In this document: positions 8,289 to 23,803 of the stretch, piece after piece
Layout of the letters: each line of letters begins with the position of its first letter
Position numbering within the stretch: position 1 is the first letter of the stretch
DNA from: Ralstonia pickettii DTP0602
GTDB lineage: Bacteria > Pseudomonadota > Gammaproteobacteria > Burkholderiales > Burkholderiaceae
Reading direction: 5' to 3'
DNA: 64,000 bases
Assembly: GCA_000471925.1 (NCBI GenBank)
Contig: CP006667.1
Span: forward strand, 3,534,001-3,598,000
Notes under the pieces: model-generated
Database searches by the model: none
What the model saw: the letters and a program-made list of their open reading frames with translations, nothing else
What the model was told of the DNA's origin: nothing
Made by a program: the position numbers and the translations under genes

Positions 8289-8618
8289 ATGGCTTCCTGT
8301 CAGTCTGTCGGGCGCGACGCACACTGCCAAGACGTGGACGACGACACCAGATCGGGCTCTTGGAACGAATCAAAGGGGCTATTTTGCCGGATTGCGCGAC
8401 TGGCGGGCGGTATAATCGCCGCAATATACCGGACCGGCGCAATTTTCAGCGTCTGTCCTACACCTGAAGCTACACTTCGCCGCCCGCCAGGCCGCGCCTT
8501 TCGCTATCCGGTCGCATTGGACCCGACGGCGATTGCCCGACAATACGGAAGCTGCCATAACTCGCCGGTGCTTTCCGGCCAAGTGGCGGTTGCGACCTAG
8601 CTAATTTCGTACGCACAC
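8289..8618. other. Divergent intergenic region between phosphomutase gene and glycan operon
   Basis: These 330 bases separate the minus-strand phosphomutase unit from the plus-strand glycan operon. They contain a perfect TATAAT hexamer at 8411-8416. No open frame with protein-like character was found. The region probably holds the promoters for both directions. Confidence 0.6.
8411..8416 (+). promoter_or_regulatory. Candidate sigma-70 -10 box for the 8619-13487 operon
   Basis: A perfect TATAAT lies about 200 bases before the TTG start at 8619. There is no convincing -35 at 16-18 bases spacing; TTGCCG at 8384 is 21 bases away and TTGCGC at 8392 only 13. It is therefore only a candidate, and it would leave a long leader. 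Confidence 0.35.
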
Positions 8619-9758
8619 TTGACGTCCACCGCACAGCCTTCGCCGCGCCTGCGCATCGCTTATCTGATCACCAATTCGGAGATCGGGGGGGCGCAGTCGC
8701 ATGTCGCTGACCTGCTGCAGTCAATGCAGGGCCGCGCCGAAACCGTCTTGCTGGCGGGCGGCGAGGGGCCTCTGTTCGATATCGCCACCCGTACCGGGGC
8801 GAAAATCATGCGGCTTTCCCGGCTCGACAACGCCCTTTCTCCCTGGCGCGCCGTTACCGCCTTGCGCGAGCTGGTGCAAGCGCTGAAGACGGCGGCCCCT
8901 GACCTGATCCATGCGCACAGCGCCAAGGCAGGCGCGCTTGGCCGCATCGCCGGCTTCCTGCTGAGAATCCCCGTGGTCTACACGGTGCACGGTTTTGCCT
9001 TCAAGCCCGAAGCGCCATGGCGCCAACGTCTTGCCGCGCGCGCGGCGGAGTGGCTGCTGGCGCCGCTGGCATCGCGCGTGATCTGCGTTGCCGAGGCCGA
9101 GCGCCGGCTGGCCCGGTCACTGCCGGTTCCCGCCGATCGCATCGCGGTGATTGCCAATGGCATTCCGGACACCGAGCGTCGCGCGGCGCCGCAAGCGCCG
9201 CTGCGCAGGATTGTGATGGTCGCGCGCTTTGCCGCACCAAAGCGACCCGACGCGGTCATCCGCGCCTTTGCGCGAGCGAATCTGCACGATTGCGAACTGG
9301 TGCTGGCAGGCGACGGTCCGCAGCGCAAAGCCATGGAGCAGCTCGCACAACAGCTCGCGCCCGGGCGCGTACGTTTCCCGGGCAATGTAGCGGACATTGC
9401 CGCCCTGCTGGCGTCCGCGCAGGCCTTTGTGCTGGCCTCGGACCATGAGGGCTTGCCGCTGTCAGTGCTCGAAGCCATGCGGGCCGGACTCGCCGTGATC
9501 GCGTCGGACCTGCCCGGCATCGGCGAACAGATCGGGCACAGCAAGCATGGGCTGCTGGTCGACCACAATGACGAGCCCGGGTTTTCTGCAGCGCTGGAAC
9601 GCCTTGCCTCAGACGCCACACTGCGCGGCGCGCTCGGCGGTGCCGCACGCCTGCGTTGGGAGCAACACTATGGGCTGGAACGGATGACCGAAGCGACCTG
9701 GTCCGTCTATCGCGATGCACTGGCGCGCACGCCTCGCGCCGCTCGGGTGCCGACATGA
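8619..9758 (+). CDS. Glycosyltransferase family 4
   Basis: The 379-residue protein has a GT-B layout: an N-terminal acceptor domain starting RIAYLITNSEIGGAQSHV, the VYTVHGFAFKP motif near residue 120, then a nucleotide-sugar domain with RIVMVARFAAPKRPD and the E-x7-E motif EGLPLSVLE. It most resembles GT4 enzymes of exopolysaccharide and O-antigen clusters that act on a lipid-linked acceptor. The start is a TTG (8619); no ATG precedes the conserved RIAYLI strand in frame. Its stop overlaps the next start as ATGA. Substrate unknown. Confidence 0.85.
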   Translation: MTSTAQPSPRLRIAYLITNSEIGGAQSHVADLLQSMQGRAETVLLAGGEGPLFDIATRTGAKIMRLSRLDNALSPWRAVTALRELVQALKTAAPDLIHAHSAKAGALGRIAGFLLRIPVVYTVHGFAFKPEAPWRQRLAARAAEWLLAPLASRVICVAEAERRLARSLPVPADRIAVIANGIPDTERRAAPQAPLRRIVMVARFAAPKRPDAVIRAFARANLHDCELVLAGDGPQRKAMEQLAQQLAPGRVRFPGNVADIAALLASAQAFVLASDHEGLPLSVLEAMRAGLAVIASDLPGIGEQIGHSKHGLLVDHNDEPGFSAALERLASDATLRGALGGAARLRWEQHYGLERMTEATWSVYRDALARTPRAARVPT

Positions 9759-11077
9759 TGAACACAAAATCCGACAACCTGCGCCGACACGCCCTGCGCC
9801 ACCACATCGGCGGCTCCGAGACGGTGCGCCGGGTAAGCCGGATGCTGACTTGGGCGGTGCTCGGCCTGGCGTTGTTCGCGATCAGCGCGGTATTCGCCGA
9901 GATGGCCCATCGCGCGGGCTTTGTCACCTACGTGTTCACGCGCACGTTGCTGTGGTCGGTGGTGCCGTACCTGTTCGCGTTCATGCTGCTCAACCGCTCG
10001 CTGCACCTGCCGGCCATGGAAGGCAACAGCCTGGCGGGGCTGGCGGTCACTCTGCCCTTCTGCGGACTGCTTTTTGCCTTTGCCGCGTTCCACATCGAGT
10101 ATTCACGAGGCGCCCTGCTGCTGGCATATATCATCACGCTGGCCTGGATCTGGGCCGGTTACCGCCGCTTCGTGCAGAACTACGTGCCATTGTTCGGATA
10201 TACCGATCCGCATACCTTGACGCAGCTCGAGGCAATACTCGCCATGCCCGGAGCCGCGCCGGCAGCCCGCATCCGCTTCGAGCCGGTTGGCTCGCTGGAG
10301 GACGCCAGGCATTTCGACGGCCTGATGGTCGAGCGCAGCGTCACCGGCGATCCGGAACGCACGCGCCTGCTCGCGCACTACAAGATGAGCCATGTGCGGA
10401 TGTATTCGGTGGAGCGCGTTGGCGAAATGCTGACCGGCCGGGTCGGCCTGGCACATATCGACGAGAACTTCCTGGACGACTACGCGGCCCATTACCTGTA
10501 CGGCTATTTGAAGCGTGTGGTCGATATCGTCACCGTCCTGTGCCTGGCGCCGATCGCCGTGCCGCTGGGCCTGGCCGTCGCGCTCGCGATCCGGCTGGAA
10601 ACGCCTGGCGGCGCCATCTTCCGGCAGCAGCGCGTCGGCCTCTTCGGCAAACCGTTCGTGATGCTCAAGTTCCGCAGCATGGGCGTCGACGGCAGCGCGC
10701 CCGCCATGTTCGCCGCACGACGCGATCCGCGTGTCACGCGCGTTGGGCGGGTCATCCGCAAGTACCGCCTCGATGAGATCCCGCAGCTGTGGAACGTGCT
10801 GGTGGGGCATATGAGCCTAATCGGCCCCCGACCCGAACAGGCGCCGATGGTCGAGCAGTTCTCAGAAACCATTCCCTATTACCCGTATCGGCACCTGGTG
10901 CGCCCCGGCCTGTCCGGCTGGGCGCAAGTGCAGCAGGGCTATGCGGGGAGCCACGAGGAAACGGTGACCAAGCTCAGCTATGACTTGTACTACGTCAAGC
11001 ATTGCTCGCTGGCGCTTGATTTGCTGATTGGGGTGAAGACCTTGCGGACGCTGGCGACGGGGTATGGGGCGCGGTGA
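9755..11077 (+). CDS. Polyprenyl-phosphate sugar-1-phosphate transferase (WbaP/WcaJ type)
   Basis: The 440-residue membrane protein should start glycan synthesis by moving a sugar-1-phosphate from a nucleotide sugar to undecaprenyl phosphate. Residues about 25-140 contain several hydrophobic helices, a central soluble region follows, and the C-terminal 190 residues are the bacterial sugar transferase domain. That domain shows the entry helix VVDIVTVLCLAPIAVPL, FRQQRVGLFGKPF, LKFRSM, RKYRLDEIPQLWNVL and GPRPE...RPGLSGWAQV. The start is the first ATG of an ATGATG pair at 9755, overlapping the previous gene. The sugar (glucose or galactose in known relatives) is not readable. Confidence 0.9.
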   Translation: MMNTKSDNLRRHALRHHIGGSETVRRVSRMLTWAVLGLALFAISAVFAEMAHRAGFVTYVFTRTLLWSVVPYLFAFMLLNRSLHLPAMEGNSLAGLAVTLPFCGLLFAFAAFHIEYSRGALLLAYIITLAWIWAGYRRFVQNYVPLFGYTDPHTLTQLEAILAMPGAAPAARIRFEPVGSLEDARHFDGLMVERSVTGDPERTRLLAHYKMSHVRMYSVERVGEMLTGRVGLAHIDENFLDDYAAHYLYGYLKRVVDIVTVLCLAPIAVPLGLAVALAIRLETPGGAIFRQQRVGLFGKPFVMLKFRSMGVDGSAPAMFAARRDPRVTRVGRVIRKYRLDEIPQLWNVLVGHMSLIGPRPEQAPMVEQFSETIPYYPYRHLVRPGLSGWAQVQQGYAGSHEETVTKLSYDLYYVKHCSLALDLLIGVKTLRTLATGYGAR

Positions 11078-12228
11078 CCAGTCCAGCCATCCCGCGCATG
11101 CGCATACTCTTCATCTGCACCGGCCTGAAGACCGGCGGCGCCGAACAGCAGGTGGCCGGGCTGGCGAAGGCGTTCGTCCAGGATCGACACGACGTTGCGA
11201 TCGTGAGCCTCACGCCCGGATGCGAGGTGACCTTGCCGGCAGGCATTACAGTCGTGCATCTCAATATGCGCAAAACCGTGGCATCAATGGCGCGCGCGCT
11301 CCGACAATTGAACAGGTTTGTCCGTCAATGGCAGCCGCACATCATTCATACCCACATGGTGCACGCCAACCTGATGGGGCGCGCCCTCGCGGCGCTAATG
11401 GCTGCGCCACCGGTCATCTGTACGGCGCACAGCGCTCGCGAAGGCGGCCGCCTGCGCATGCTGGCCTACCGCCTGACCGACCGCTGGGCGGCGCTGAATT
11501 CGCACGTCAGCGAGAGCGCCAGGCAGGCGATGATCGACGCCGGTGCCGTGGTGCCGGAGCGCATCATTGTCATGCCCAACGGCATCGACACCGATCTCTT
11601 TCGCCCCGACCCGGCTCTGCGGCAGGTCACCCGCACGGCGCTGGGCATCTATCCCGGCACCAGACTGGTGGTCAATATCGGCCGCTTGGCCCCGGAGAAA
11701 GCCCAACCCCTGCTGATCCAGGCATTTGCCGGCATGGTGCGAACACCCGGCCACGCCGACACCCGGCTGCTGGTGGCAGGAGAAGGCCCGATGCGCGGCG
11801 CGCTGGAAGCGGCCATCCGCCAGCACGATGCGGCTGGGTTCATCACCCTGGCCGGAAACCGTCGAGACATACCCGCCCTCCTAAATGCCGCTGACCTGTT
11901 CGTGCTGTCCTCTGACGTGGAAGGCATGCCGCTGGCCGTGGGCGAGGCGCTCGCCTGCGGCTGCCCGGTGGTTGCGACCGATGCGGCCGGAGTGGCTGAA
12001 CTGCTTGGCGATGCCGGGATCATCGTTCCGCGCGGTAACGCGGACGCCCTCGCCAAAGCCATGTCCGACACACTGGCGCGCGGCATCGGATCTGACGCTG
12101 AACAGATGCGCCGGCGCCAGCGCGTGCTGGCGCACTGCAGCCTGGACGCGGTGGCGCGCAGGTGGCTCGCCTGCTATGCGGCAGTGGCCAGCGCCCATGG
12201 TAGCGTAACCTGCGCGGAGCCGACCTGA
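11074..12228 (+). CDS. Glycosyltransferase family 4
   Basis: The 384-residue protein opens MRILFICTGLKTGGAEQQVAGLA after a short leader and carries the HTHMVHANLMGR and VICTAHSAREGGRLRM acceptor-side motifs. The donor half has VVNIGRLAPEKAQPLLIQAF and an E-x7-E motif (EGMPLAVGE). It belongs to the GT4 group common in exopolysaccharide and LPS loci. The GTG start at 11074 overlaps the preceding stop (GTGA); an ATG eight codons later is an alternative. Its stop also overlaps the flippase start by one base, so all four genes of this block are coupled. Confidence 0.87.
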   Translation: MTSPAIPRMRILFICTGLKTGGAEQQVAGLAKAFVQDRHDVAIVSLTPGCEVTLPAGITVVHLNMRKTVASMARALRQLNRFVRQWQPHIIHTHMVHANLMGRALAALMAAPPVICTAHSAREGGRLRMLAYRLTDRWAALNSHVSESARQAMIDAGAVVPERIIVMPNGIDTDLFRPDPALRQVTRTALGIYPGTRLVVNIGRLAPEKAQPLLIQAFAGMVRTPGHADTRLLVAGEGPMRGALEAAIRQHDAAGFITLAGNRRDIPALLNAADLFVLSSDVEGMPLAVGEALACGCPVVATDAAGVAELLGDAGIIVPRGNADALAKAMSDTLARGIGSDAEQMRRRQRVLAHCSLDAVARRWLACYAAVASAHGSVTCAEPT

Positions 12229-13487
12229 TGCGGCGCCAGCTTGCCGGCAACCTTGTTTGGATGCTTGCTGAACGCGGCCTACAGGTCGCAGGCGGCATCG
12301 GCATCGTAGCCATGCTGGCGCGGGGGCTGGGGCCGGAGGGATTTGCACATTTCCAGTATGCGCAGGCGGTGGTTTATATTGCTGCCTCCGCTGCACTGAT
12401 CTGCGGGGGGGAGGTAATCATCCCGCGGCTGGTGGCGAACACTGATCCGATTGCACAGCATCGCTTGCTGATTCACGCTTTTGGCTTACGGATCGGGGCC
12501 GGTGTGCTGGCATACCTGCTGATCAGCGCATTCCTGCTAATCACGGAGCAAGGTTTGGATATCTGGGCGCCAACGCTGATCCTGGGCGTCGCAGTCATCC
12601 TGCGCGAACCGTTTGGCGTAGTGACTGCCTGGATGCAGTCACGCACATGGACTAGGCCCAATGCCGTTTTCAACGTCACGTCGCTGGCTGTCAAGGCAGC
12701 CTGCGTCGCACTGTTGTTCTGGGCCGGCAGCCAGAGCGTTCTTGCCTACGCGGCCGTATTCTCCTTCGAGCCGGTCATTGCCGCGATCCTGCTGACCCTG
12801 TACTACCTTGCCCGCGCACCACGCACTCACGTGGAGGTTGACCCGACGCTCGCCCGCGAGCTCTTGAGAAGCGGGGCCTTGTTCTGGGTGAGCTTCATGA
12901 TGATGATGGGATCGCGGCGTGTGGACCAGCTGCTGTTAAAGCCGCTGGTCCCTTTGACGGAGTTCGGCGCCTATGCGGCCTCCATGCAGATCCTCGACAA
13001 CTTTATCGTGCTTGCAACGATCCTGTCCGCCGGTATTGCGCCCATGTATGTCTATGCTCGGCCCACTATCGCCCAGGCGCGGCGCAATATCATGAAGATC
13101 GCCGGCGGGATGCTCGCCATTGGACTAGCGGGCGGGTTGGCCATAGCCGTTTGCGCACACTGGATCGTTCAGTTGCTCTACGGCCCGGCCTTTGCCGAGG
13201 CCGCCCATCTGCTACAGTTGGCCGCCCTGGCCTCAACACTCGTCTTTGCTGACGTTGGGTTGACCCTGCTACCAATCTACATGCGCCGGCCGCATTTGGT
13301 TGCCATCAAATGGGCGCTGGTGTGCGCCGTCACAATTGCCATCGATGTCGTCACCATCCCGGCCTTTGGCGCACGCGGCGCTATCCTGGGATATGCGGTG
13401 GCCAACCTGCTGGCGGTGCTTTTCGGGGCCTCCATCTGGCTGCGACAGGAGCCGGCGGCGCCCACCCCACGGGAGGCCAGTGCATGA
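12228..13487 (+). CDS. wzx: Wzx-like oligosaccharide flippase (MOP superfamily)
   Basis: The 419-residue protein is hydrophobic along its length, with about 12-14 predicted membrane helices. It has the polysaccharide-synthesis family opening GNLVWMLAERGLQVAGGIGIVAMLARGLGP (in pieces: helix one and the LGPEGFAHFQYAQAVVYI loop). Such proteins flip undecaprenyl-diphosphate-linked repeat units across the inner membrane. Its position last in a block that starts with a sugar-phosphate transferase supports this. No Wzy-type polymerase was recognised nearby. Its stop overlaps an ATG (13484) that opens only a ten-codon frame, suggesting that a fifth gene has been lost. Confidence 0.83.
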   Translation: MRRQLAGNLVWMLAERGLQVAGGIGIVAMLARGLGPEGFAHFQYAQAVVYIAASAALICGGEVIIPRLVANTDPIAQHRLLIHAFGLRIGAGVLAYLLISAFLLITEQGLDIWAPTLILGVAVILREPFGVVTAWMQSRTWTRPNAVFNVTSLAVKAACVALLFWAGSQSVLAYAAVFSFEPVIAAILLTLYYLARAPRTHVEVDPTLARELLRSGALFWVSFMMMMGSRRVDQLLLKPLVPLTEFGAYAASMQILDNFIVLATILSAGIAPMYVYARPTIAQARRNIMKIAGGMLAIGLAGGLAIAVCAHWIVQLLYGPAFAEAAHLLQLAALASTLVFADVGLTLLPIYMRRPHLVAIKWALVCAVTIAIDVVTIPAFGARGAILGYAVANLLAVLFGASIWLRQEPAAPTPREASA

Positions 13488-14222
13488 ATCAAGCCATCAT
13501 TTGGTTGTGGTGCTGACTGTGCAGGTTCCATTGCCGTGGCCAAAAGCTCCGTGGCGACGCGCAGGCCGCGTCACTATTCCAAATCCGCTTTGTTCCCGCT
13601 GCCATAGGAGCCCACGCCGTGGCTCCGCCAGTTCGTGCTCGCCATGGGGCAATGGCATGCCAAAGGATTTGATGTGCCTTTACGAGGCCCAAGGAACAAA
13701 GCGATCGCCTGAGTGAGGGCGGACGGTAGAGTCCTAGACGTGCTCGTAGCGCAAATTGATGAGCCCTGATAGCTTTTGGTCGTTTCGATTCAGCGGATCG
13801 CCGCACTGAACCAAGGGAACTTCTAAAAAATGACCAGAGTAGCGATCGGCAATGTCAATGTGTTGCCCCCTGGATAAGGCGACTCCTATGACCAGCCGCT
13901 GGCGCTGGGAAAATGGCTTGAATGCAACCTAGGATGCCATTGTGGCGGCACTTAACCTCGCAATCGCCTACGCATGCAGACGATCCGGTTAAAATGCGGG
14001 CTGCGTTGCCGAAAATACGCTACTCGGGCAAGCAACGTAGCAAGCGAAAGTAGCCGGCGCCCCCAGTGCGGACTTCCGGCCAGAGCTACTTGCGCGCTAC
14101 ACCGTACGAAGAAATTCGTGCAATGACTACAACAAGCCAACCAGAGCGCCAGCTGCCGCTGGGGACCACCCGGATGTCATGCACGAAAGGAAAATATATA
14201 GCAATTTTCAGGGAGGGGTTTC
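13488..14222. other. 735-base gap with decayed coding sequence, no intact gene
   Basis: No open frame here has a credible start with protein-like composition. A short plus-strand stretch around 13623-13712 translates to something protein-like (RQFVLAMGQWHAKGFD) but ends in stop codons on both sides. The sequence is less G+C rich than its flanks. It is most simply read as the remains of one or more genes removed when the block at 14223 was inserted. Confidence 0.5.
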
Positions 14223-15653
14223 GTGGTTTCCATGCCACTTGTAGTCGACTTGGACGGTACGCTGATTCGTACAGACATGCTCCACGAATCTGCGCTACGC
14301 GTATTGCGGGACAGCCCGGCAGACATCCTGCGCATTCCGCTTTGGCTTTCGCGAGGAAAAGCCGTACTAAAAGCACACCTAGCTGGACTCGTAAGCATCG
14401 ATCCAGCCTCCCTGCCCTACAACATAGAGCTGCTTGAATGGCTCAAGACTCAAAAGGCTGCGGGCCGCAAGCTGATCCTGTGCACAGCGTCGGACAAGTC
14501 AATGGCGCTAGCCATCGCCGAGCACCTGACCATCTTCGATGAGGTTATGGCTAGTGACGGTGTCACTAACCTGGCTGGCCCCAATAAAGCAGCCGCTCTC
14601 CACCAGCGCTTCGGCCAAGCAGGCTTCGACTACGTTGGCAACTCGAGTGCCGATATCACAGTCTGGCGCTGCGCGCGCAACGCCATCGTCGTCAACGGTT
14701 CGGCCAGTCTCGCCAAGGCAGCCAGGGGCTGCTGCGAGGTCGAGCGTGTGTTCCCGGCTGAAGGGCTCAGCTTCACAGCATGGCGCCGCATGCTGCGTAT
14801 CCATCAATGGCTCAAGAACCTCCTGCTGTTCGTGCCGATGTTCGCCGGCCATGAACTGACCAGCGGCACGACCTGGGTCGCAATGATCCTGGCGTTCTTT
14901 TCTTTCAGCATTTGTGCGTCGTCGGTCTATATTGCCAACGACCTGATTGACCTGGAAAGCGATCGCCAGCATCCACGCAAGCGCTTCCGCCCGTTCGCGT
15001 CGGGCCAAGCTCCTGCATGGATCGGGGTAGTACTAGCGCCAGTGCTGCTGCTGATCAGCGTGGCGCTGGCACTGTTCGTCGGTGGCAGTTTCCTTCCCTG
15101 GCTGTTTATCTACTTCATCGTCACCTGCATCTACTCTCTGGCGCTCAAACGAATCATCCTGGTTGACTGCCTTGTGCTGGCCTTGCTCTACACGCTGCGC
15201 ATCATTGCTGGTGCCGCCGCGGCAATGCTTCCGATGACGTTCTGGCTGCTGGCGTTCTCCATTTTCCTGTTCCTTTCGCTGGCCTTCGTCAAGCGCTATG
15301 CCGAGCTCGAGGTTCAGTTGCAGAGCGGGGAGCAGAAGGTCCACGGCCGTGGTTACTACACCACCGACGCCTCGCTGATCCAGTCGCTCGGGATCGGCTC
15401 GGGCATCGCTTCGGTGCTGGTTCTGGCGCTCTACCTGAACAGCAGTTCGATCTTGATTCTCTACCAGACCCCCGAGTTCGTCTGGGGCGCGGTGCTTGTC
15501 ATGCTGTTCTGGATAAGCTGGATGTGGATGAAGGCCCATCGAGGGGAAATGCATGACGATCCGCTGATCTTTGCCGTCAAGGACCGCGCCAGCCAGATCG
15601 CCGGGCTTGCCTTCGCCGTGGCACTGATTGCGGGAACGGTGAGTTGGCCATGA
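14223..15653 (+). CDS. HAD phosphatase-UbiA prenyltransferase fusion, decaprenyl-phosphate phosphoribosyltransferase-like
   Basis: The 476-residue protein joins two domains. Residues 1-180 form a HAD hydrolase with the nucleophile motif VDLDGTL (Asp9 and Asp11), LCTASD and GPNKAAALHQRFG. Residues 190-476 form a UbiA-type membrane prenyltransferase with ANDLIDLESDRQHP (from 238) followed by KRFRPFASG, then YSLALKRI and AFVKRYAELE. The UbiA part closely resembles mycobacterial Rv3806c, which makes decaprenyl-phospho-phosphoribose (DPPR). The HAD part could remove the 5-phosphate from DPPR, a step done by a separate protein in mycobacteria. The GTG start at 14223 has GGAGG six bases upstream; ATG 14232 is too far. 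Direct neighbour of dprE1/dprE2-like genes. Function is inferred from homology and context. Confidence 0.85.
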   Translation: MVSMPLVVDLDGTLIRTDMLHESALRVLRDSPADILRIPLWLSRGKAVLKAHLAGLVSIDPASLPYNIELLEWLKTQKAAGRKLILCTASDKSMALAIAEHLTIFDEVMASDGVTNLAGPNKAAALHQRFGQAGFDYVGNSSADITVWRCARNAIVVNGSASLAKAARGCCEVERVFPAEGLSFTAWRRMLRIHQWLKNLLLFVPMFAGHELTSGTTWVAMILAFFSFSICASSVYIANDLIDLESDRQHPRKRFRPFASGQAPAWIGVVLAPVLLLISVALALFVGGSFLPWLFIYFIVTCIYSLALKRIILVDCLVLALLYTLRIIAGAAAAMLPMTFWLLAFSIFLFLSLAFVKRYAELEVQLQSGEQKVHGRGYYTTDASLIQSLGIGSGIASVLVLALYLNSSSILILYQTPEFVWGAVLVMLFWISWMWMKAHRGEMHDDPLIFAVKDRASQIAGLAFAVALIAGTVSWP

Positions 15654-16948
15654 CCGCAGTCACCTCGTGGGGCCGGCTCGGCAGTTGGGAACACGACGTC
15701 CAGATGCTGACCGACCGCTCCAGAATCGCCGACCACCTCGCCGGGGCGCGTCCCGGCCTTGCGTATGGCATGGGCCGCAGCTATGGCGACGTCTGCCTGA
15801 ACCCCGGCAATGTGCTGTGGAAAACCACGGCGCTGGACCACTTCATTGCCTTCGACGAGACGCAAGGCAGAATCGTCTGCGAAGCCGGCGTGCTGCTGCG
15901 CGACATCCAGCGGCTCGCCGTACCGCGCGGGTGGATGCTGCCAGTGACACCAGGCACGCAACTGGTCACCGTCGGCGGCGCCATCGCAAACGATGTGCAT
16001 GGCAAGAACCACCACGTGTTCGGCACGTTCGGTGACAACGTCCGCCGGCTGACCCTCGTGCGTACCGATGGGACCCAGCTCGAATGCGGCCCCGACGAGA
16101 ACGCGCCCTGGTTCGCCGCCACCATCGGCGGCCTCGGACTTACCGGCGTCGTCGTCACCGCCGAACTGCAATTGCGTCGTGTCAGCGGCCCATGGCTCGA
16201 TACAGAGACAGTGCCGTACGCCAGCCTCGACGAATTCTTCGAGATCGCGGACGGCTCCGAAGCCGGGTGGGAACACACCGTGTCCTGGATCGACTGTCTG
16301 AGCGCCGGCAGCCAGCGCGGCCTGTTCATGCGCGGCAATCCGAGTGAAACAGCTAACCGGCCGGAACCGAAGAGTCGCGCCAGAACCATGCCGTTCGTGC
16401 CGCCGGTGTCACTCGTCAACGGCTTGACGCTACGTCCGTTCAACATGACCTATTTCCACCTCAACAAGTGGAAAGCCGGCCGCGGCATCGCCCACTACGA
16501 ACCCTTCTTCTATCCGCTCGACAATCTTCACGAGTGGAACCGGATGTACGGACCGCGCGGGTTCTTCCAGTACCAGAGCGTGGTACCACGCCCTGTCGGA
16601 CGCGACGCCGTGCAGGCCATGCTGCAGGAAATCGCCCGCTCGGGCGAGGGCTCGTTCCTTGCCGTGCTGAAGACGTTCGGCGACCGTGTCGCACCCGGCA
16701 TGCTCAGCTTTCCGCAGCCGGGCGTGACGCTCGCGCTCGACTTCCCTAACCGGGGCGACAAGACCACCGCACTGTTCGAGCGTCTCGACGCCATCGTCCG
16801 CGAAGCCAAGGGCCGCCTCTACCCAGCCAAGGACGCGCGGATGCCACGCGACCTGTTCGAATCCGGCTACGCCCGCCTGACGGAATTCCTCCCCTATCGT
16901 GACCCGGGCATCAGCTCCGCCCTGTCACGCCGACTCTTGGGACACTGA
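15650..16948 (+). CDS. dprE1: DprE1-like FAD oxidase (decaprenylphospho-ribofuranose 2-oxidase family)
   Basis: The 432-residue protein has the FAD-binding PCMH fold of vanillyl-alcohol-type oxidases. Visible motifs are YGMGRSYGDVCLNPGN, PVTPGTQLVTVGGAIANDVHGK (FAD site, residues about 99-120) and the C-terminal GRLYPAKDAR with Lys394, matching the active-site Lys of mycobacterial DprE1. DprE1 oxidises the 2-OH of decaprenyl-phosphoryl-ribose to a keto intermediate. At the position aligned with the benzothiazinone-reactive Cys387 this protein has Ala362 (in TLALDFP). The ATG at 15650 overlaps the stop of the HAD-UbiA gene (ATGA). Pairing with the DprE2-like gene makes the pathway call firm, but the exact lipid carrier and sugar are inferred. 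Confidence 0.88.
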   Translation: MTAVTSWGRLGSWEHDVQMLTDRSRIADHLAGARPGLAYGMGRSYGDVCLNPGNVLWKTTALDHFIAFDETQGRIVCEAGVLLRDIQRLAVPRGWMLPVTPGTQLVTVGGAIANDVHGKNHHVFGTFGDNVRRLTLVRTDGTQLECGPDENAPWFAATIGGLGLTGVVVTAELQLRRVSGPWLDTETVPYASLDEFFEIADGSEAGWEHTVSWIDCLSAGSQRGLFMRGNPSETANRPEPKSRARTMPFVPPVSLVNGLTLRPFNMTYFHLNKWKAGRGIAHYEPFFYPLDNLHEWNRMYGPRGFFQYQSVVPRPVGRDAVQAMLQEIARSGEGSFLAVLKTFGDRVAPGMLSFPQPGVTLALDFPNRGDKTTALFERLDAIVREAKGRLYPAKDARMPRDLFESGYARLTEFLPYRDPGISSALSRRLLGH

Positions 16949-16950
16949 AC

Positions 16951-17715
16951 TTGCAGAACCAGAACAAACGAATCGTGATCGTTGGCGCCACCTCGGCCAT
17001 CGCCGAACACTGCGCACGCAACTGGGTGAGCGAACCCGGCGCAGATCTCACGCTGGTGGTCCGCAACCGCAGCAAGGCGGAAACCATCGCAACCGACCTG
17101 CGAGTGCGCTGCCCAAGCGCGTCGGTCCGGATCGTCGAAGCCGACTTCGCCAGTGCCGCCGCAATCCGCCAGCTCGCAGATTCGCTAGCCGAAGCCGGCC
17201 CCCTCGATATCGTACTGATCGCGCACGGCACACTGCCCGACCAGGCCCAGTGCGAACAGGACCTTGAAGTAGCGGACGAAGCCATGCACATCAATGGCAT
17301 CTCGCCCGTGCTGTTCGCCGAAGCCTTCGCCGGCCAGATGGCCACCGCCAACCGCGGCACGCTAGGCATCATCGGCTCCGTCGCCGGTGACCGTGGCCGC
17401 AAATCCAACTACGTCTACGGCGCCGCAAAAGGCCTGGTGACACGTTACGCACAAGGCCTGCAGCATCGCATGGCGCTGATGAAGCGCACTGGCGTCAAAG
17501 TCGTGCTGATCAAGCCAGGACCTACCGCGACACCGATGACCGCGCATCTGACGGCACAAGCCGGCAAGATGGCCCGCGTCGAGGATGTCGCTAAATGTAT
17601 TGTCGATGGCATGGCCGCCGGCAAGCCGGTAATTTACGCACCGGGCAAGTGGGCAGTGATCATGATGGTGATCCGCCATTTGCCGCGGTTTGTGTTTGAT
17701 CGGATGGATATCTGA
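16951..17715 (+). CDS. dprE2: DprE2-like short-chain reductase (keto-ribofuranose 2-reductase family)
   Basis: The 254-residue classical SDR has the nucleotide-binding IVIVGATSAIAEHCA, the catalytic Ser143 and the YGAAK motif (Tyr156, Lys160). In the DprE1/DprE2 pair it would reduce the 2-keto lipid sugar to the arabino configuration using NAD(P)H, completing epimerisation of ribose to arabinose on the lipid phosphate. The GATSAIAE variant of the glycine loop is typical of DprE2-like SDRs rather than general dehydrogenases. The start is a TTG two bases after the dprE1 stop, and there is no better ATG. Co-translation with dprE1 is likely. Confidence 0.85.
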   Translation: MQNQNKRIVIVGATSAIAEHCARNWVSEPGADLTLVVRNRSKAETIATDLRVRCPSASVRIVEADFASAAAIRQLADSLAEAGPLDIVLIAHGTLPDQAQCEQDLEVADEAMHINGISPVLFAEAFAGQMATANRGTLGIIGSVAGDRGRKSNYVYGAAKGLVTRYAQGLQHRMALMKRTGVKVVLIKPGPTATPMTAHLTAQAGKMARVEDVAKCIVDGMAAGKPVIYAPGKWAVIMMVIRHLPRFVFDRMDI

Positions 17716-17834
17716 CTGCCGTCGCACCGGAGCAGAGACCGGCCAGCCTGGGGCACGATGTCAGTACCTTCAGTGCCGTCCTCCGGGCATGTACAAGCGA
17801 ATATACAAACCATCCAGAATTGACTGAGGCAAGC

Positions 17835-18779
17835 GTGAAGAACCTGAATGAGAAAATCATCCTCCCGGGCGGAGCCGGCCTGGTCGGACAGAACCTCGTA
17901 GCCCGTCTGCGCGACCTGGGCTACACGAACATCGTGGTGCTGGACAAGCACCGCACCAACGTCGACGTGCTCAAGAAGACGCAACCCGATGTCCATGTCG
18001 AGTGCGTCGATGTCTCGTCCCCCGGCGAATGGCTCAAGCACTTCGAAGGCGCATCCGTCGTCGTCATGCTGCAAGCCCAGATCGGCGGCACCGACTGGCA
18101 GGAGTTCGTCCGCAACAACGTCGACTCGACACGCGTGGTCCTCGATGCGATCAAGGCGAACAATGTGCCGTACCTGGTACACATCAGCTCGTCTGTCGTC
18201 GAATCCGTGGCCGATGACTTCTACACCCGCAGCAAGAAGGCACAGGAAGACATGGTGCTGGCCAGCGGAATACCTTGCCCCGTGCTGCGCCCGACGCTGA
18301 TGTTCGGCTGGTTCGACCGCAAGCACCTCGGCTGGCTCTCGCGTTTCATGCAGACGGTCCCGGTGTTCCCGATCCCCGGGGATGGACGCTATATGCGCCA
18401 ACCGCTGTATGTCGGCGACTTCTGCCGCATCATCATCAGCTGTATCGAGAACCGGCGCGGCGCAGGTGTGTACAACATCTCAGGCCATGAGAAAGTCGAC
18501 TACATCGACATCATCCGCGAGATCAAGCGGGCCACCCGATCCAAGACGCCGATCGTGCGCATCCCCTATGGGCTGTTCTATGCGCTGCTGTGGACCTGGT
18601 CGCTATTCGACAAGAACCCGCCATTCACGACGCAACAGCTTGCCGCACTCAGCGCCAAGGACGAATTCGAAGTCATCGACTGGCCTGGCATCTTCGGCGT
18701 CAACTCGACCCCGTTCAAGAAAGCTGTCGACGAAACCTTTAACGATCCGCGCTACAGCCGCGTGGTGCTGGAGTTCTGA
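17835..18779 (+). CDS. NAD-dependent epimerase/dehydratase (extended SDR)
   Basis: The 314-residue protein has an N-terminal Rossmann loop LPGGAGLVGQNLV, a VDVSSPGEW acidic strand, VHISSSVVESVADDFYTRSKK (Ser and Tyr-x3-Lys catalytic set) and RPTLMFGWFDRKHLGWL in the substrate half. It belongs to the sugar-nucleotide epimerase/dehydratase superfamily, but the exact reaction is not recognisable. The GTG at 17835 is preferred because GAGG lies five bases before it; a TTG at 17820 is an alternative. It directly abuts the FAD oxidoreductase gene, with the stop and next ATG adjacent, so these two probably act together in a lipid- or nucleotide-sugar modification. Confidence 0.78.
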   Translation: MKNLNEKIILPGGAGLVGQNLVARLRDLGYTNIVVLDKHRTNVDVLKKTQPDVHVECVDVSSPGEWLKHFEGASVVVMLQAQIGGTDWQEFVRNNVDSTRVVLDAIKANNVPYLVHISSSVVESVADDFYTRSKKAQEDMVLASGIPCPVLRPTLMFGWFDRKHLGWLSRFMQTVPVFPIPGDGRYMRQPLYVGDFCRIIISCIENRRGAGVYNISGHEKVDYIDIIREIKRATRSKTPIVRIPYGLFYALLWTWSLFDKNPPFTTQQLAALSAKDEFEVIDWPGIFGVNSTPFKKAVDETFNDPRYSRVVLEF

Positions 18780-20060
18780 ATGTCGCAACGCATCGCCGTA
18801 CTCGGCGCCGGTCCGATGGGCCTGGGCGCTGCCTACCAACTCGTGCGCGATGGGCACAAACCCGTCATCTACGAAGCCGATGACCGCGTGGGCGGCATGG
18901 CAGCCTGTTTCGATTTTGGCGGCACATCGATCGAACGCTACTACCATTTCCATGCAACGTCGGACGTCGCCTTTTTCGAAGTCCTGAAGGAACTCGGCCT
19001 CACCGACAAGCTGCAATGGCGCGAAACCAAGATGGGCTACTACTACCAAGGGCAGGTACAGCCCTGGGGCAATCCCATCGCACTGTTAAAGTTCAAGGGC
19101 CTTAGCTTCATAGCCAAGTTCCGCTATGGCCTGCACGCCTTCCTGTCGACCAAGCGCAACGACTGGCGCCCCCTCGACAAGGTCGAGGCGACCGGCTGGA
19201 TTCGTCGCTGGATCGGTGAAGAGGCATGGGAAGTGCTCTGGCGCCGCCTGTTCGACTACAAGTTCTACGACTACGCCTACAACCTGTCCGCAGCCTGGAT
19301 CTGGAGCCGCATCCGCCGGATCGGTCGCTCTCGCTATGACCTGTTCCACGAAAAACTCGGTTATCTCGACGGCGGTTCCGATACATTGCTGAACGCTATG
19401 CGCGACGCCATCATTGCGGGAGGCGGCGAGTTCCGCATGTCGACGCCCGTGCAGCGGGTCGTCATCGACAATGGCAGTGTCAAGGGTGTGGAAACCGGGG
19501 ATGGCATCGAAAGCTACGACAGAGTCATCAGCACCGTCCCACTGCCGTATGTGCCCCGTATCATGCCGGACTTGCCTGCGGATGTACTCGACAAGTTCAG
19601 AAGAATCAAAAACGTTGCCGTTGTCTGCGTCATAGCCAAGCTAAAGAAGCCGGTCACGGACAACTTCTGGCTCAACGTCAATGACCCCGGCATGGACATT
19701 CCCGGTATCGTCGAATATACGAACCTGCGCAAGATGCACGATCACATTGTCTACGTTCCGTACTACGTGCCGGGCGAACACCCGAAGTACAAGGAACCAG
19801 ACACGGTCTTCATCGACAAAGTGAAGTCCTACCTGATGAAAATCAATCCGTCGCTACAGGAAAGCGATTTTATCGAAGTCCGTGCCAGCCGCTACCGCTT
19901 CGCGCAACCGATCTGCGAGCCGGGATACCTCGACCGCCTGCCGCCGATCCAACTACCGGTAAAGGGCCTCCTTGTCGCCGACACGTCCTACTACTACCCG
20001 GAAGACCGCGGCATCTCGGAAAGCATCGGGCTCGCACGCAAGATGGCCCGGATGTTCTGA
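18780..20060 (+). CDS. FAD-dependent oxidoreductase of the protoporphyrinogen oxidase/amine oxidase-like family
   Basis: The 426-residue protein begins with a dinucleotide-binding fold (IAVLGAGPMGLGAAYQL, then VIYEADDRVGGMA) and continues with SIERYYHFH, WRETKMGYYYQG and FHEKLGYLDGGSDTLLNAM. This pattern matches the uncharacterised NAD(P)/FAD-binding group found in glycan clusters next to GtrA and epimerase genes. It shares its fold with UDP-galactopyranose mutase and protoporphyrinogen oxidase, but the catalytic residues of either are not obvious. A role in modifying a sugar donor is inferred from context only. The stop overlaps the gtrA-like start by one base. Confidence 0.8.
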   Translation: MSQRIAVLGAGPMGLGAAYQLVRDGHKPVIYEADDRVGGMAACFDFGGTSIERYYHFHATSDVAFFEVLKELGLTDKLQWRETKMGYYYQGQVQPWGNPIALLKFKGLSFIAKFRYGLHAFLSTKRNDWRPLDKVEATGWIRRWIGEEAWEVLWRRLFDYKFYDYAYNLSAAWIWSRIRRIGRSRYDLFHEKLGYLDGGSDTLLNAMRDAIIAGGGEFRMSTPVQRVVIDNGSVKGVETGDGIESYDRVISTVPLPYVPRIMPDLPADVLDKFRRIKNVAVVCVIAKLKKPVTDNFWLNVNDPGMDIPGIVEYTNLRKMHDHIVYVPYYVPGEHPKYKEPDTVFIDKVKSYLMKINPSLQESDFIEVRASRYRFAQPICEPGYLDRLPPIQLPVKGLLVADTSYYYPEDRGISESIGLARKMARMF

Positions 20061-20449
20061 TGCCGTCTCGTACCTTCCTGCTGTTCCTGCTGACCGGCGG
20101 TTTCGCAGCCACGGTCAACTGGACAAGCCGTATCGTCTACAACTTGTGGTTGCCCTACTCCTATGCAATCGTGGCCGCATACTTGACAGGCATGGTCACG
20201 GCGTTTGTATTGGCAAAGGTATTCGTTTTTACTACTTCCACCCAGTCGACAGGCCGCTCGGCGCTGATCTTCACGCTTGTCAACATCGCTGCGGTCCTCC
20301 AGACCTGGGGGGTTAGCGTAGTATTGGCCTACTATCTGTTACCCGCGCTTGGCGTGATATCGCACTCAAAGGAAATTGCACACTTGTTTGGAGTCGCCGT
20401 ACCTGTTGTTACAAGCTATATCGGCCACAAGAAATATTCGTTCCGATAG
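20060..20449 (+). CDS. GtrA family small membrane protein (probable lipid-sugar flippase)
   Basis: The 129-residue protein has four hydrophobic helices (around residues 5-25, 32-54, 68-92, 98-120) and the GtrA opening FLLFLLTGGFAATVNWTSR, with FVLAKVFVF in helix two and a final YIGHKKYSFR. GtrA proteins are thought to flip polyprenyl-phosphate-linked monosaccharides to the periplasmic face. Here it sits between the DprE1/DprE2-type module and a GtrII-like membrane transferase, consistent with flipping the furanose donor. Start at 20060 overlaps the upstream stop (TGATG). Confidence 0.88.
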   Translation: MPSRTFLLFLLTGGFAATVNWTSRIVYNLWLPYSYAIVAAYLTGMVTAFVLAKVFVFTTSTQSTGRSALIFTLVNIAAVLQTWGVSVVLAYYLLPALGVISHSKEIAHLFGVAVPVVTSYIGHKKYSFR

Positions 20450-20525
20450 GCTCTTTGGCCTGGATTGTGGCCATCTGCTCTAGGCCACTAGACAACCTTC
20501 CCTCAATCACCAGCAAGAGCTGTAT

Positions 20526-22112
20526 TTGGTGAAAATGCTGGGCGTTACAGAGGTAAACAGCCCCAACAATCCAAGAGCAGTACCCGAATCCTGGCAACAG
20601 ATAGATTTCCCAAAGAAAGTGAAGAATCAAGATATCCTTACGAACACCCGAACCTTGAGCAGGGACCAGATCGCGTTTTGTGGCGCTCTGTTAGGGTTGC
20701 TCCTCAGTAAGGGGCTCGCACTATTTCCGGCATATGGGCTGGATGACTACGTGGCAGTCCATCAGGATAGACATCCACTTTTCTATGTTTCGCAGGGTCG
20801 CTTTACTCAAGCCGCGATTCAGGTGGCCCTCTCAACTCTTGGAGTTACGCCAACCTCGATCGCCTGGACGTCCACACTGCTGTTCTTCATTTTTGCAGCG
20901 CTTGCCATCTCAAGCTCTCTGCTTTATATAGCACGGACTCGCGGCAACGGATTTACCTTCGCCGCAGCCGGAGCACTGATTGGGGCACATCCATACCTGA
21001 CTGAGTATTTTACGTTCAGGGAATCCTTGATAACCCAGGGCACGGCCTTCGGATTGCTAGCACTCGTTTTTGTGTTCGCTAGATACCATGAAAATACGAA
21101 CGAAAAACTCCCAAGACTGCATTCATTAGGATGGCTGGCAATTCCTCTGGTGCTTCTTGCTGGAGCCCAACAGACAACGTTTATTGTGGCCTTTTTCGTT
21201 GTGCTAGCGAGAATTACCGTAGATTCATTATGGAGCAGCCAGCAACGAGGATTCGCTGCTGCCCTTCGGGCTAACGCACCCGTTATATTTGCATTTGCAG
21301 CGGCAATCGTCATCTATGTACTTGCCTACAAGATCTGCAGGAACGCACTGAGCGCTGCATTAGATACAAGAGGGTCTATTGTAGCGCTCACCGAAATTAT
21401 CCCTAGGATAGCCAAGGTAGGCGATTTGACTTGGAAGATCCTTATTCAGTCTGAGCCAGTGTTGTCGGCCGTTCCCAAGATATTGCTTGCCTTGATCATT
21501 CTTTTCTTCCTTGGGAAAGTCGGACTCAAAAGCCCAAAGATTGCAGCAATGATTGTCTGCATGACGGCCGCGATGTATCTTGGAAGTGTATTTCTTATCA
21601 CCATCTCCGCCGTGTGGTGGCCAGTTCCGCGTGCGGTGTATGGAGTTGGCTTTGTTTACGGAGTAGTTTTATCGGTCATTTCGCTTTGGCTCTCGCACAC
21701 GGAAGCCCGCCAACTTTCCATCGGCGCTCTGATCGTTGCTATTATCTTTTCTTTCCACAGCAATGCAATGCTTCATGATCAGGCTCGGCTTAACCGGTGG
21801 GATTCATGGGTTGCCGGCGGCATCGCGAAAGACCTTTTGAAAAAAGGTATCTCGGCAGATCAAAAGGTCACTCTCGTGGGTGCGAAATGGAGACATCCCA
21901 TCGGCATGCGCACCCTTGAAGGGGATCTGAATGCCTCTGCACTACCCGTAGCTTGGGCAGCTCAGTATCTGATGATGGAAGTCACCGGCAGGTCTTGGAA
22001 CGTAGACTCTGTCGCACAAGCAGAGCAATGCAGGAACAGCCCCCCTTGGCCAGCTGACGAGTCAATCAAGATAATTTCCGGCTCAGTCTTCGTCTGCATG
22101 GGGGAACGATAG
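20526..22112 (+). CDS. GtrII-like polytopic membrane glycosyltransferase (GT-C type)
   Basis: The 528-residue product has about ten membrane helices and an N-terminal YGLDDYVAVHQDRH loop followed by VSQGRFTQAAIQVAL. This Asp-Asp...GR arrangement is typical of the glucosyltransferase GtrII family and other GT-C enzymes that use polyprenyl-phosphate sugars on the periplasmic side. It may transfer the furanose made by the upstream module onto O-antigen or another acceptor. The start is uncertain: TTG 20526, GTG 20529 and ATG 20535 are close together, with AAGAG at 20515. The gene is markedly less G+C rich than the genes before it, so it may have a different origin. The precise sugar and acceptor are unknown. 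Confidence 0.75.
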   Translation: MVKMLGVTEVNSPNNPRAVPESWQQIDFPKKVKNQDILTNTRTLSRDQIAFCGALLGLLLSKGLALFPAYGLDDYVAVHQDRHPLFYVSQGRFTQAAIQVALSTLGVTPTSIAWTSTLLFFIFAALAISSSLLYIARTRGNGFTFAAAGALIGAHPYLTEYFTFRESLITQGTAFGLLALVFVFARYHENTNEKLPRLHSLGWLAIPLVLLAGAQQTTFIVAFFVVLARITVDSLWSSQQRGFAAALRANAPVIFAFAAAIVIYVLAYKICRNALSAALDTRGSIVALTEIIPRIAKVGDLTWKILIQSEPVLSAVPKILLALIILFFLGKVGLKSPKIAAMIVCMTAAMYLGSVFLITISAVWWPVPRAVYGVGFVYGVVLSVISLWLSHTEARQLSIGALIVAIIFSFHSNAMLHDQARLNRWDSWVAGGIAKDLLKKGISADQKVTLVGAKWRHPIGMRTLEGDLNASALPVAWAAQYLMMEVTGRSWNVDSVAQAEQCRNSPPWPADESIKIISGSVFVCMGER

Positions 22113-22276
22113 TCCCCGCGTGGCAATTGGAAAGCAGGGTGTTCCAGACGTCAGCGTGCGAGCCGCGGTGACGCGTTGCGTCCGGTGGCATGTTCAGGCC
22201 CAAGGTACCGAAGCGAGCGATCAACGCCTGCTCGAGCGATCGCAATAGGAATGCCCATTACTGGGCACCCTCCACA

Positions 22277-22620
22277 CAGATCCCGGAAGTAGAAGAAGCG
22301 GCCCTTCACTGTGGAGGGCAACCAGGTGATGTCCCAGCACCAGACCTGGCTGGGGCCGTCGGCAGTGTGCGTGGTCGGCGCCCGGGGCTTGGCCTGTCGG
22401 CTGCGGCCGTGCCGGCGCCCCTGGCCCTCAGCCTTGAGACGGCGGTAGAACGTCGATTCCGAGGCCCGGTAGCGACCCTCGTCGGCCAGCTTCGGCACGA
22501 TCTGATGCGGCGTCAGGCTCTCGTAGCCAGGCTGGTTGGCGGCAGGCCAGCACGGCCTGCCGCTCCGCCTCGCGGTGCTTGGTGGCTGGCACCGGGCCGG
22601 CAAGATCCAGAGGTGCGGCC
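22277..22620 (-). pseudogene. IS3-family transposase (OrfB) remnant
   Basis: On the minus strand, the part around 22520-22277 translates to an OrfB N-terminal segment: TPHQIVPKLADEGRYRASES, then STFYRRLKAEG and VWCWDITWLPSTVKG, which contains the first catalytic Asp of the DDE triad (in WDIT). The more upstream part (KHREAERQAVLA) lies in another frame, so there is a frameshift near 22545. Downstream of the FYF at about 22280 homology stops abruptly. The second and third catalytic residues, OrfA and both inverted repeats were not found. This is an inactive scar. Confidence 0.8.
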
Positions 22621-22729
22621 GTATCAGGGCAAGTGACAGAAGTGGACGAGAGGCGTATCTGTCCACGCTGCCACCGAATGTTTCTCCAATCTTCCCGCAG
22701 GATGGCTAAGTGCGATTGCTAGGCGGTCG

Positions 22730-23536
22730 TCACTTCCAGTAATCTAGGAAGCCTTGCTTAAAGAGGTAGGTCGCTTTGCCTTCCCTTTCATTTGCGCGAT
22801 CGACAACGCGCTTAATCTCTTCAAATGGTCGCTTGAAGAAAAGCCATAGGCGCGATTCGACCTCGTAGATGGAGCACTGGTATCCCCATTCGCGGAACAG
22901 CACCTCCATGCTCCGGTTCGTAAAAAATGAGCAATGAACTGGCAGCAGGTAGAACCACTCAGGATCTGCGGGAATCTCTTCACGAACCAAGGTGTGTAGG
23001 CCCATCACACCGCTTGTGGAAACAAGCGCGTTAATCGCATCGAGACCTTCGCGTGTTCTTAAATGCTCGAACACGGATGTGGAAATAACGAAGTCAAACG
23101 TCGCCGGCATGGGCGCGGTCTTCAGAGCCGGTTCGGGGCACCCCATGTACCGATCGAAGTTCAGCAATGTACGGTCACTAACTCTCTGCAAGGCAGCAGA
23201 TAGTTGACCTCCGCCAGCTGCATAGTCAATCCATGGACGCTCGGCAGGTATCAGTCCCAGATGCGCGCAATCCGCAATGAACGCCGCCTGCGCGTCGATT
23301 CTGGCCAGCCATCGTGGATCGTCTGGATTGTGCTCAAGGGATTGGTAGCCTGAATGATATGCCGCATTCAGGGTGCTCCAATCCTCGTCGGACATGTCGG
23401 CATGGGTCTGAGAAAGAACAAATCCGCAACGAGCACACCGAGTGTACTCGACATCAGACAAACCGAAGCCTGAGAAGCGTTTGCTGAAGTACGGAAAGGA
23501 TGGGCCGGCACAGACCAAACAGCGATTGTTTTCCAT
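22730..23536 (-). CDS. SAM-dependent methyltransferase with N-terminal zinc-ribbon
   Basis: The 268-residue protein (from the ATG at 23536) starts with a CLVC...CARC four-cysteine motif (Cys6, 9, 34, 37), likely a zinc knuckle. A class I methyltransferase domain follows, with WIDYAAGGGQLSAAL as the SAM-binding glycine loop, FDFVISTSVFEHL and later HCSFFTNRSMEVLFREWGY. Such genes modify sugars in O-antigen clusters or act on small molecules. None of the possible starts (TTG 23557, ATG 23542, ATG 23536) has a good Shine-Dalgarno. It lies between the IS3 scar and the muramidase fragment, at the end of the minus-strand O-antigen cluster, and may methylate the chain. Confidence 0.8.
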   Translation of the reverse strand: MENNRCLVCAGPSFPYFSKRFSGFGLSDVEYTRCARCGFVLSQTHADMSDEDWSTLNAAYHSGYQSLEHNPDDPRWLARIDAQAAFIADCAHLGLIPAERPWIDYAAGGGQLSAALQRVSDRTLLNFDRYMGCPEPALKTAPMPATFDFVISTSVFEHLRTREGLDAINALVSTSGVMGLHTLVREEIPADPEWFYLLPVHCSFFTNRSMEVLFREWGYQCSIYEVESRLWLFFKRPFEEIKRVVDRANEREGKATYLFKQGFLDYWK

Positions 23537-23696
23537 GAGCATACGTGGGGTATCCAAAGATCATTGCCATTCTTTCCAGTGTAACAGGTGATGGCTGACT
23601 GACCATTCCCGGAGCCCTTAGGCCACGCGCCTGATCGCCCCCGGGGTACGGCCGAGTCCAGTGAATTACTCTTTATGACATCTTGCACAAGAGTGC

Positions 23697-23719
23697 AACC
23701 ACATTCCGGTGGTTTTTTT
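23697..23719 (+). terminator. Intrinsic terminator upstream of the muramidase fragment
   Basis: The arms AACCAC (23697-23702) and GTGGTT (23709-23714) form a short stem with a six-base loop, followed by a run of T to 23719. It precedes the muramidase fragment and could be part of the same phage-derived segment. Confidence 0.6.
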
Positions 23720-23803
23720 CATGCCCGCCTTGCGCGTGCTTCATCATTTCTGAAGCACGCATGCAATTACACAGATCCCGCCAGTCTACCGGGAGGCCAC
23801 AAC

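Follow-up and report, generated by a model that had tools for sequence, protein, structure and literature searches.

A seven-gene cassette in an O-antigen island of Ralstonia pickettii DTP0602 as a candidate system for O-antigen decoration with a lipid-linked pentose

The window analyzed in this study, a 64,000-nucleotide stretch of Ralstonia pickettii DTP0602 (contig CP006667.1, positions 3,534,001 to 3,598,000), contains seven genes between waaA and argF that are likely to form a periplasmic O-antigen decoration system. They encode a HAD phosphatase fused to a UbiA-type phosphoribosyltransferase, homologs of the mycobacterial enzymes DprE1 and DprE2, an epimerase-like protein (Epi), a flavin adenine dinucleotide (FAD) oxidoreductase (FADox), a GtrA-family membrane protein and a membrane glycosyltransferase of the GT-C fold (GT-C). 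What is directly shown for this cassette is its gene content, motifs, fold, linkage and location. Its probable function is to assemble a pentose on a lipid carrier in the membrane and to link this sugar to the outer polysaccharide, and the two extra genes, Epi and FADox, point to a further change of the sugar on the way. The host genome is 8.1 Mb in three contigs, and the nearest relatives of its DprE1 that bear names are from Cupriavidus.

In the proposed pathway the first two steps would be carried out by the HAD-UbiA protein, as has been demonstrated for a homologous enzyme from Citrobacter (Kelly et al. 2024, PMC11127046). Polyprenyl-phosphate arabinofuranose would then arise by oxidation of C2 and its renewed reduction, catalyzed by DprE1 and DprE2. 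Next, Epi and FADox would act on the same lipid-linked sugar, GtrA would flip it, and GT-C would transfer the pentose to the O-antigen that the neighboring genes produce.

Proposed synthesis of the lipid-linked pentose

An earlier note on this DNA had described three coupled genes, encoding a UbiA prenyltransferase with DPPR-synthase motifs, a DprE1-like oxidase and a DprE2-like reductase. All three are present as described and lie on one strand, with a 4-base overlap between the UbiA and DprE1 open reading frames (ORFs) and a 2-base gap between those of DprE1 and DprE2. However, the unit has seven genes, and the N-terminal HAD domain and the four genes that follow had been missed.

Relatives were compared in 88 loci, 8 from the genus and 80 that were the best matches elsewhere (of at least 575), so that counts lean to close relatives; residue counts come from ORFs of these loci (DprE1 65, DprE2 55, UbiA 51, Epi 18, FADox 19). 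The assignments of all three proteins are far beyond chance. UbiA scored 668 bits against NF006088 (cut-off 351), and its UbiA part matched the Rv3806c structure 8j8j (E 2.4e-27 across residues 189-466). Pfam places the HAD domain (PF12710) at residues 7-146 and the UbiA domain (PF01040) at residues 208-444. The HAD motif DLDGT is intact at residue 9, and so is the UbiA motif NDxxDxxxD at residue 239 (NDLIDLESD), whose four N/D residues are kept in 51/51 aligned relatives. By these domains and motifs the protein is predicted to combine a polyprenyl phosphoribose synthase with a PRP (HAD) phosphatase, as in the system of Kelly et al. (2024). A separate phosphatase of another family, as in the mycobacterial pathway, was not found in the cassette, which has the HAD fusion instead. 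Among loci with an unfused UbiA, a DUF212/PAP2 phosphatase was nearby in 21/38, compared to 0/44 HAD-fused loci (Fisher 1.6e-9; Fisher values in this study ignore relatedness). Because these two unrelated phosphatases exclude each other across loci, the HAD domain would be expected to do the 5-phosphate step, for which M. tuberculosis uses Rv3807c. A second architecture, with an unfused UbiA on one strand, was seen in L043, L048, L084 and similar loci; in the three named loci a 137-residue GtrA-type protein, DprE1 and DprE2 are on the other strand.

The DprE1-like oxidase scored 330 bits against NF053785 (cut-off 500) and matched the solved DprE1 structure 21gq, which we take to be the M. tuberculosis enzyme, with E 3.5e-70; 160 of 409 aligned residues are identical to M. 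tuberculosis DprE1. In M. tuberculosis numbering, the positions of Tyr60, His132, Gln336, Lys367, Tyr415 and Lys418 are the same in 65/65 aligned relatives, and Tyr314, Asn385 and Cys387 are replaced in the window protein by Phe, Thr and Ala. In the 65 aligned relatives the position of Cys387, the covalent target of benzothiazinones, is occupied by Ala (60), Ser (3) or Thr (2), and therefore the covalent benzothiazinone cysteine is absent from them. The DprE2-like reductase scored 151 bits against NF053786 (cut-off 250) and 243 bits against NF005489 (cut-off 267), and its S143, Y156 and K160 are kept in 55/55 aligned relatives. Judged by sequence, both proteins are homologous to the mycobacterial pair and keep the main catalytic residues, yet they stay below equivalog level.

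Phylogeny had been named in the earlier note as a check on DprE1, and the protein did not group with general oxidases. In a FastTree analysis of 54 DprE1 sequences (one of them an M. tuberculosis piece) and 14 others of 19 picks, the window and M. tuberculosis proteins were in one clade apart from the 14 general FAD oxidases (local support 0.91). This tree drew on 52 of the 88 loci, with ORFs of at least 520 residues dropped, and was midpoint-rooted since the 14 outside oxidases formed no single clade. Identity to the window DprE1 is 53-95% in relatives of the same genus, up to 76% in loci elsewhere and 39% in M. tuberculosis. A recent transfer from mycobacteria was rejected, since relatives in the genus and elsewhere are closer than the M. 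tuberculosis protein. Actinomycetota outside the mycobacteria (Subtercola, Demequina, Leucobacter and Rathayibacter; L109-L111, L114, L115, L121) have DprE1 proteins with 53-56% identity to that of the window, above the M. tuberculosis value. A phage vehicle is not supported, because a phage collection gave no match to DprE1 and a single one to HAD-UbiA (33% over 44% of its length).

Relatives of DprE1 amount to at least 7,999 protein clusters, and at E 1e-60 or better they were found in 47/299 genomes of a draw from the phylum. Such a module is therefore not unusual for a betaproteobacterium, where the earlier note had considered it surprising, and a pathway of this kind in Gram-negative bacteria was described in 2024 (PMC11127046). 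In the 88 loci DprE1 has DprE2 nearby in 88, UbiA in 82 (with HAD fused to it in 44) and GtrA in 68. This conserved linkage, together with plasmid records, led us to reject a chance run of genes.

The Epi-FADox pair

Epi bears the signature of the nucleotide-sugar epimerase family (PF01370), with a GxxGxxG motif at residue 12 and with Y130 and K134 present in 18/18 aligned relatives; its start was set at GTG 17835, and the ORF list has a TTG at 17820. FADox scored 577 bits against NF005560 (cut-off 252) and also matched PF01593. The draw of 299 genomes contained 8 with Epi and 9 with FADox, and all 8 Epi genomes have FADox alongside and a DprE1 in the genome (Fisher 2.2e-7). A second draw of 369 genomes, which overlaps the first in part, added 13 genomes with FADox at 45% identity or more, all 13 with Epi and DprE1, so that the three occur together in 21/21 FADox genomes at this identity, this genome included. 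Three FADox matches below 36% (G205, G360, G374) are not counted among the 21; the stretch read in these genomes lacks Epi, and DprE1 is missing from the whole genome. Epi adjoins FADox in 20/21 genomes, and DprE1 is within about 10 kb of the pair in 17/21. The order UbiA-DprE1-DprE2-(GT-C)-Epi-FADox was seen in 14 of these 17 linked genomes (followed by GtrA in 13, with a HAD match in 9/14), and in the other 3 Epi-FADox-GtrA stands between UbiA and DprE1. In the 88 loci Epi and FADox (above 250 bits) co-occur in 21 and never singly, and weaker Epi-like matches bring Epi to 27.

At the cut-off used, 39 of the 47 DprE1 genomes do not have Epi, and therefore DprE1 and DprE2 do not need the pair. 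Since the pair was never seen without DprE1 and many DprE1 genomes do without the pair, the most economical interpretation places the action of Epi and FADox after that of DprE1 and DprE2, on one and the same lipid-linked sugar. We tentatively propose that they may be a second pair of oxidase and reductase/epimerase that mirrors DprE1/DprE2 and converts polyprenyl-phosphate arabinofuranose to a further sugar before flipping. If this is true and Epi and FADox invert C3, the product would be lyxofuranose; a change of ring form, a keto pentose or a deoxy pentose would also be possible. According to Kelly et al., none of the structures solved contains lyxofuranose, a possible reason being that its formation takes two inversions (PMC11127046). 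Literature searches, one of them aimed at the pair, found no description of it; these searches did not extend to the additional candidate systems in the supplement of PMC11127046.

A somewhat unlikely alternative is that the donor is plain polyprenyl-phosphate D-arabinofuranose, and that Epi and FADox are merely co-inherited and have a different substrate, for instance one of the nucleotide sugars for the O-antigen. It draws on the 39 genomes without Epi, where arabinofuranose alone suffices as product, and on Kelly et al., who place DprE1/E2 homologs in candidate systems of arabinofuranose glycans (PMC11127046). However, it does not easily accommodate the co-occurrence in all 21 FADox genomes or the fact that three close relatives with other O-antigen backbone genes still retain Epi and FADox. 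It also sits poorly with plasmid records that have FADox (E 1e-60), in which all six donor genes are present in one order in 7/7 (Burkholderia, four Rhizobium, Agrobacterium and a Rhodobacteraceae), with FADox identity down to 46%. The earlier note had proposed that the module may supply D-arabinofuranose (or ribofuranose) to LPS or another surface glycan. The phosphoribosyl-lipid pathway with DprE1/DprE2-type epimerization and its place in an O-antigen locus are supported, but D-arabinofuranose may be an intermediate and not the final sugar because the seven-gene unit has two further oxidoreductases.

It is quite unlikely that FADox and Epi alter the polyprenyl carrier, by desaturation for example, and not the sugar. 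The FADox model does share a fold with phytoene desaturase, its best Foldseek matches being phytoene desaturase 5mog and protoporphyrinogen oxidase folds, and NCBIfam lists hydroxysqualene dehydroxylase and carotenoid desaturases for it, all far below cut-off. But the same fold serves amine oxidases and others, the model is a guide only at its confidence (predicted local distance difference test (pLDDT) score 68), and Epi resembles a sugar epimerase.

Probable transfer to the O-antigen

The waaA-argF stretch is a variable O-antigen island, because it holds a Wzx-like flippase, a Wzt-type ABC exporter, dTDP-rhamnose-type genes and many glycosyltransferases (Pfam). G+C content is 0.64-0.71 up to 12 kb of the window, 0.54-0.63 from 12 to 42 kb and 0.65-0.68 beyond, and waaA and argF are on one contig in 52/60 genomes of the genus, spaced 16.3 to 48.8 kb apart. 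A DprE1 relative of at least 53% identity was found in 9 of these 60 genomes, nearly all others giving short matches of 23-34% only. The cassette is inside the island in all five genomes whose DprE1 is 83-100% identical (this genome and 4/4 close relatives). One genome (G041) with nearly the same anchors (waaA 99%, argF 100% identical) has an island without DprE1, DprE2, UbiA, FADox, GtrA or GT-C, and the sole Epi-like match there is a 23% match within rmlB.

GtrA, a putative flippase, would take the role of the flippase gene in the system of Kelly et al. (2024), although its family (PF04138) differs from the MATE-type prototype. The sequence of the GT-C protein matched nothing in solved structures, Pfam or NCBIfam, and PF14264 (GtrII family) is matched by 7/44 aligned GT-C proteins but not by that of the window. 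The fold assignment comes from a model (pLDDT 90.6), for which 46 of the 50 structure matches listed are GT-C enzymes or complexes containing one. The other four are three GPI-transamidase chains, which we take to be GT-C-like, and one pyrophosphatase. Another membrane protein family is found near DprE2 and Epi in 17/88 loci, with a WDMWxG-like motif near the start in several; the members tried had no Pfam match, and the family is probably another GT-C.

The islands of the four close relatives were read to argF and compared with that of the window. Only one relative (G059) has the backbone genes of the window (22730 at 82%, 24040 at 73%, 29352 at 79%, 31286 at 78%, Wzt at 89% and Wzm at 92%), and it alone has the GT-C, at 67%. 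In the other three (G025, G043, G007) all six donor genes are retained, with identities of 80-97%, but nothing matches the GT-C, and for the backbone genes there was no match or distant or partial ones only (the best being Wzm at 58% in G025). G043 has a different GT-C-like protein between DprE2 and Epi. Across these five genomes, on which the statement rests, the donor genes stay the same while the transferase changes together with the O-antigen backbone genes. Such behavior would be expected of a system that has the O-antigen as its acceptor.

Homologous genes have been described for pilus arabinosylation in Pseudomonas paraeruginosa (PMC12369383), and by that precedent the cassette could glycosylate a protein such as pilin, its position in the island being incidental. 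This is very unlikely given the position between waaA and argF in this genome and 4/4 close relatives and the way GT-C tracks the backbone genes. A better candidate for another target is the distant DprE1 group of the genus (53-55% identity, four genomes), which is outside the waaA-argF island in both genomes where it could be placed. Least credible is the idea that the DprE1- and DprE2-like proteins have nothing to do with lipid-linked ribose and act as general oxidoreductases on sugars or alcohols: their scores below the curated cut-offs and the labels L-gulonolactone oxidase or L-fuco-beta-pyranose dehydrogenase that some sources give to DprE1 relatives would allow it, but the next FAD family reaches 40 bits against 330 for DprE1, and the tree and the frequent UbiA neighbor speak against it.

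Some further features of the island were noted. The Wzx-like flippase and the ABC exporter occur in one island, so two surface glycans may be made. Two island proteins, at 6738-8600 (620 residues) and 9715-10776 (353 residues), have no Pfam family and are kept at 92% and 91% in G041. Promoter and terminator scans gave sites no more numerous than in shuffles. Literature searches found no Cupriavidus O-antigen structure with arabinose and none of xylofuranose with Burkholderia.

Table 1. Features of the window and, in the last three rows, members of a membrane protein family from other loci
Feature	Position	Strand	Assignment and basis
HAD-UbiA	14223..15653	+	HAD phosphatase (PRP) fused to UbiA-type polyprenyl-phosphate 5-phosphoribosyltransferase; NF006088, PF12710, PF01040, 8j8j
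DprE1	15650..16948	+	DprE1-type FAD oxidase (polyprenyl-P-ribose 2-oxidase); NF053785, solved DprE1 structure, kept residues
DprE2	16951..17715	+	DprE2-type SDR reductase; NF053786, NF005489, Ser-Tyr-Lys set
Epi	17835..18779	+	Extended-SDR epimerase-like protein; PF01370, GxxGxxG, Tyr/Lys
FADox	18780..20060	+	FAD oxidoreductase, amine-oxidase/phytoene-desaturase fold; NF005560, PF01593, model
GtrA	20060..20449	+	GtrA-family small membrane protein, putative flippase of lipid-linked sugar; PF04138, E 8e-14
GT-C	20526..22112	+	GT-C fold membrane glycosyltransferase, GtrII-like, putative pentosyltransferase; fold of model
O-antigen island	5817..44478	.	Between waaA and argF, holds the cassette; Pfam, anchors and spacing, G+C drop at 12-42 kb
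waaA	4527-5816		Left anchor of island
argF	44479-45453		Right anchor of island
Wzx-like flippase	12228-13487		Inside island; Pfam
ABC exporter	35616-37764		Inside island; ATPase with Wzt C-terminal domain
dTDP-rhamnose genes	38331-41188		Inside island
WDMWxG-motif family	L036:7220-8920		Example
WDMWxG-motif family	L063:12047-14158		Example
WDMWxG-motif family	L087:12109-13842		Example

Known systems and biological meaning

The closest precedent is the three-component pentofuranose system of Citrobacter youngae O1/O2 (ORF12-15; PRP-PPPRS, GT136). As reported by Kelly et al., the HAD-UbiA fusion ORF15 makes lipid-linked ribofuranose, identified by nuclear magnetic resonance, from which a GT-C enzyme (GT136) transfers the sugar to the O-antigen, and an SDR epimerase converts the side chain to xylofuranose (PMC11127046). 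The window system shares with it the HAD-UbiA fusion with the same domain order, a lipid-linked pentose derived from phosphoribosyl pyrophosphate, an auxiliary SDR epimerase (O2), a small membrane flippase and a GT-C transferase. The decoration reading is further supported because ORF15, with the same architecture, adjoins an ABC-exported O-antigen as here. The flippase is of the MATE type in Citrobacter but GtrA in the window, which also differs in C2 epimerization by DprE1/E2 and in having a separate SDR and FAD oxidoreductase. The window GT-C has GtrII-type relatives, and the Citrobacter transferase is GT136. Kelly et al. also mention one phage example of such systems and more elaborate ones in Xanthomonas and Bacillus, with several epimerases or GT-Cs whose roles are left unassigned there (PMC11127046).

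The mycobacterial decaprenylphosphoryl-arabinose pathway (Rv3806c, Rv3807c, DprE1, DprE2, Rv3789) shares a homologous phosphoribosyltransferase, DprE1 and DprE2 with the cassette, which differs in its fused HAD phosphatase, the Ala at the DprE1 Cys387 position, the extra Epi and FADox, and one transferase in place of several arabinan enzymes. P. paraeruginosa (PSPA7_6245-6251 and TfpW) has a UbiA-dependent D-arabinofuranose pathway in a Gram-negative background, but with pilin as target and a separate phosphatase, and the description consulted (PMC12369383) mentions no Epi-FADox pair. In Azorhizobium, similarity to M. tuberculosis led to the proposal that noeC, noeH and noeO of noeCHOP provide a D-arabinose precursor, although the acceptor there is the Nod factor. 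The Gtr glucosylation systems of Shigella and Salmonella (GtrA, GtrB and a type-specific Gtr) resemble the cassette in the GtrA flippase, a serotype-specific GT-C and a periplasmic O-antigen side chain, but the window has a five-gene pentose branch in place of the GtrB donor synthase, and Pfam found no glycosyltransferase family 2 domain in the seven cassette proteins.

Several observations weigh against the reading of the cassette as a pentose decoration system of the O-antigen. Its basis in this organism is sequence and models. The window protein departs from M. tuberculosis DprE1 at Tyr314 and Asn385, and DprE1 and DprE2 both fall short of the NCBIfam equivalog cut-offs. Foldseek gave the GT-C model no match at E 1e-3 or better, and GT-C fold matches do not show sugar specificity. 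DprE1 is on a contig other than that of Epi-FADox in 4/21 genomes (G198, G668, G694, G382), in two of which the pair is at a contig start, and Epi and FADox are themselves apart in G382. Since the island also has the Wzx-like flippase, a second glycan could be the acceptor.

The kind of pathway is already known from the 2024 account (PMC11127046); relative to that account, what is new is the variant with the Epi-FADox pair, GtrA, a GtrII-like GT-C and DprE1/E2. Enzymes of the DprE1 type are frequent beyond the mycobacteria. From a donor pathway of six conserved genes combined with an exchangeable GT-C, one would predict that many Proteobacteria have surface glycans bearing a pentose. If the proposal for the pair is true, these six donor genes would represent a widespread branch of their own within the chemistry of lipid-linked pentoses, and the reaction of Epi and FADox could yield a sugar so far unseen in any glycan.

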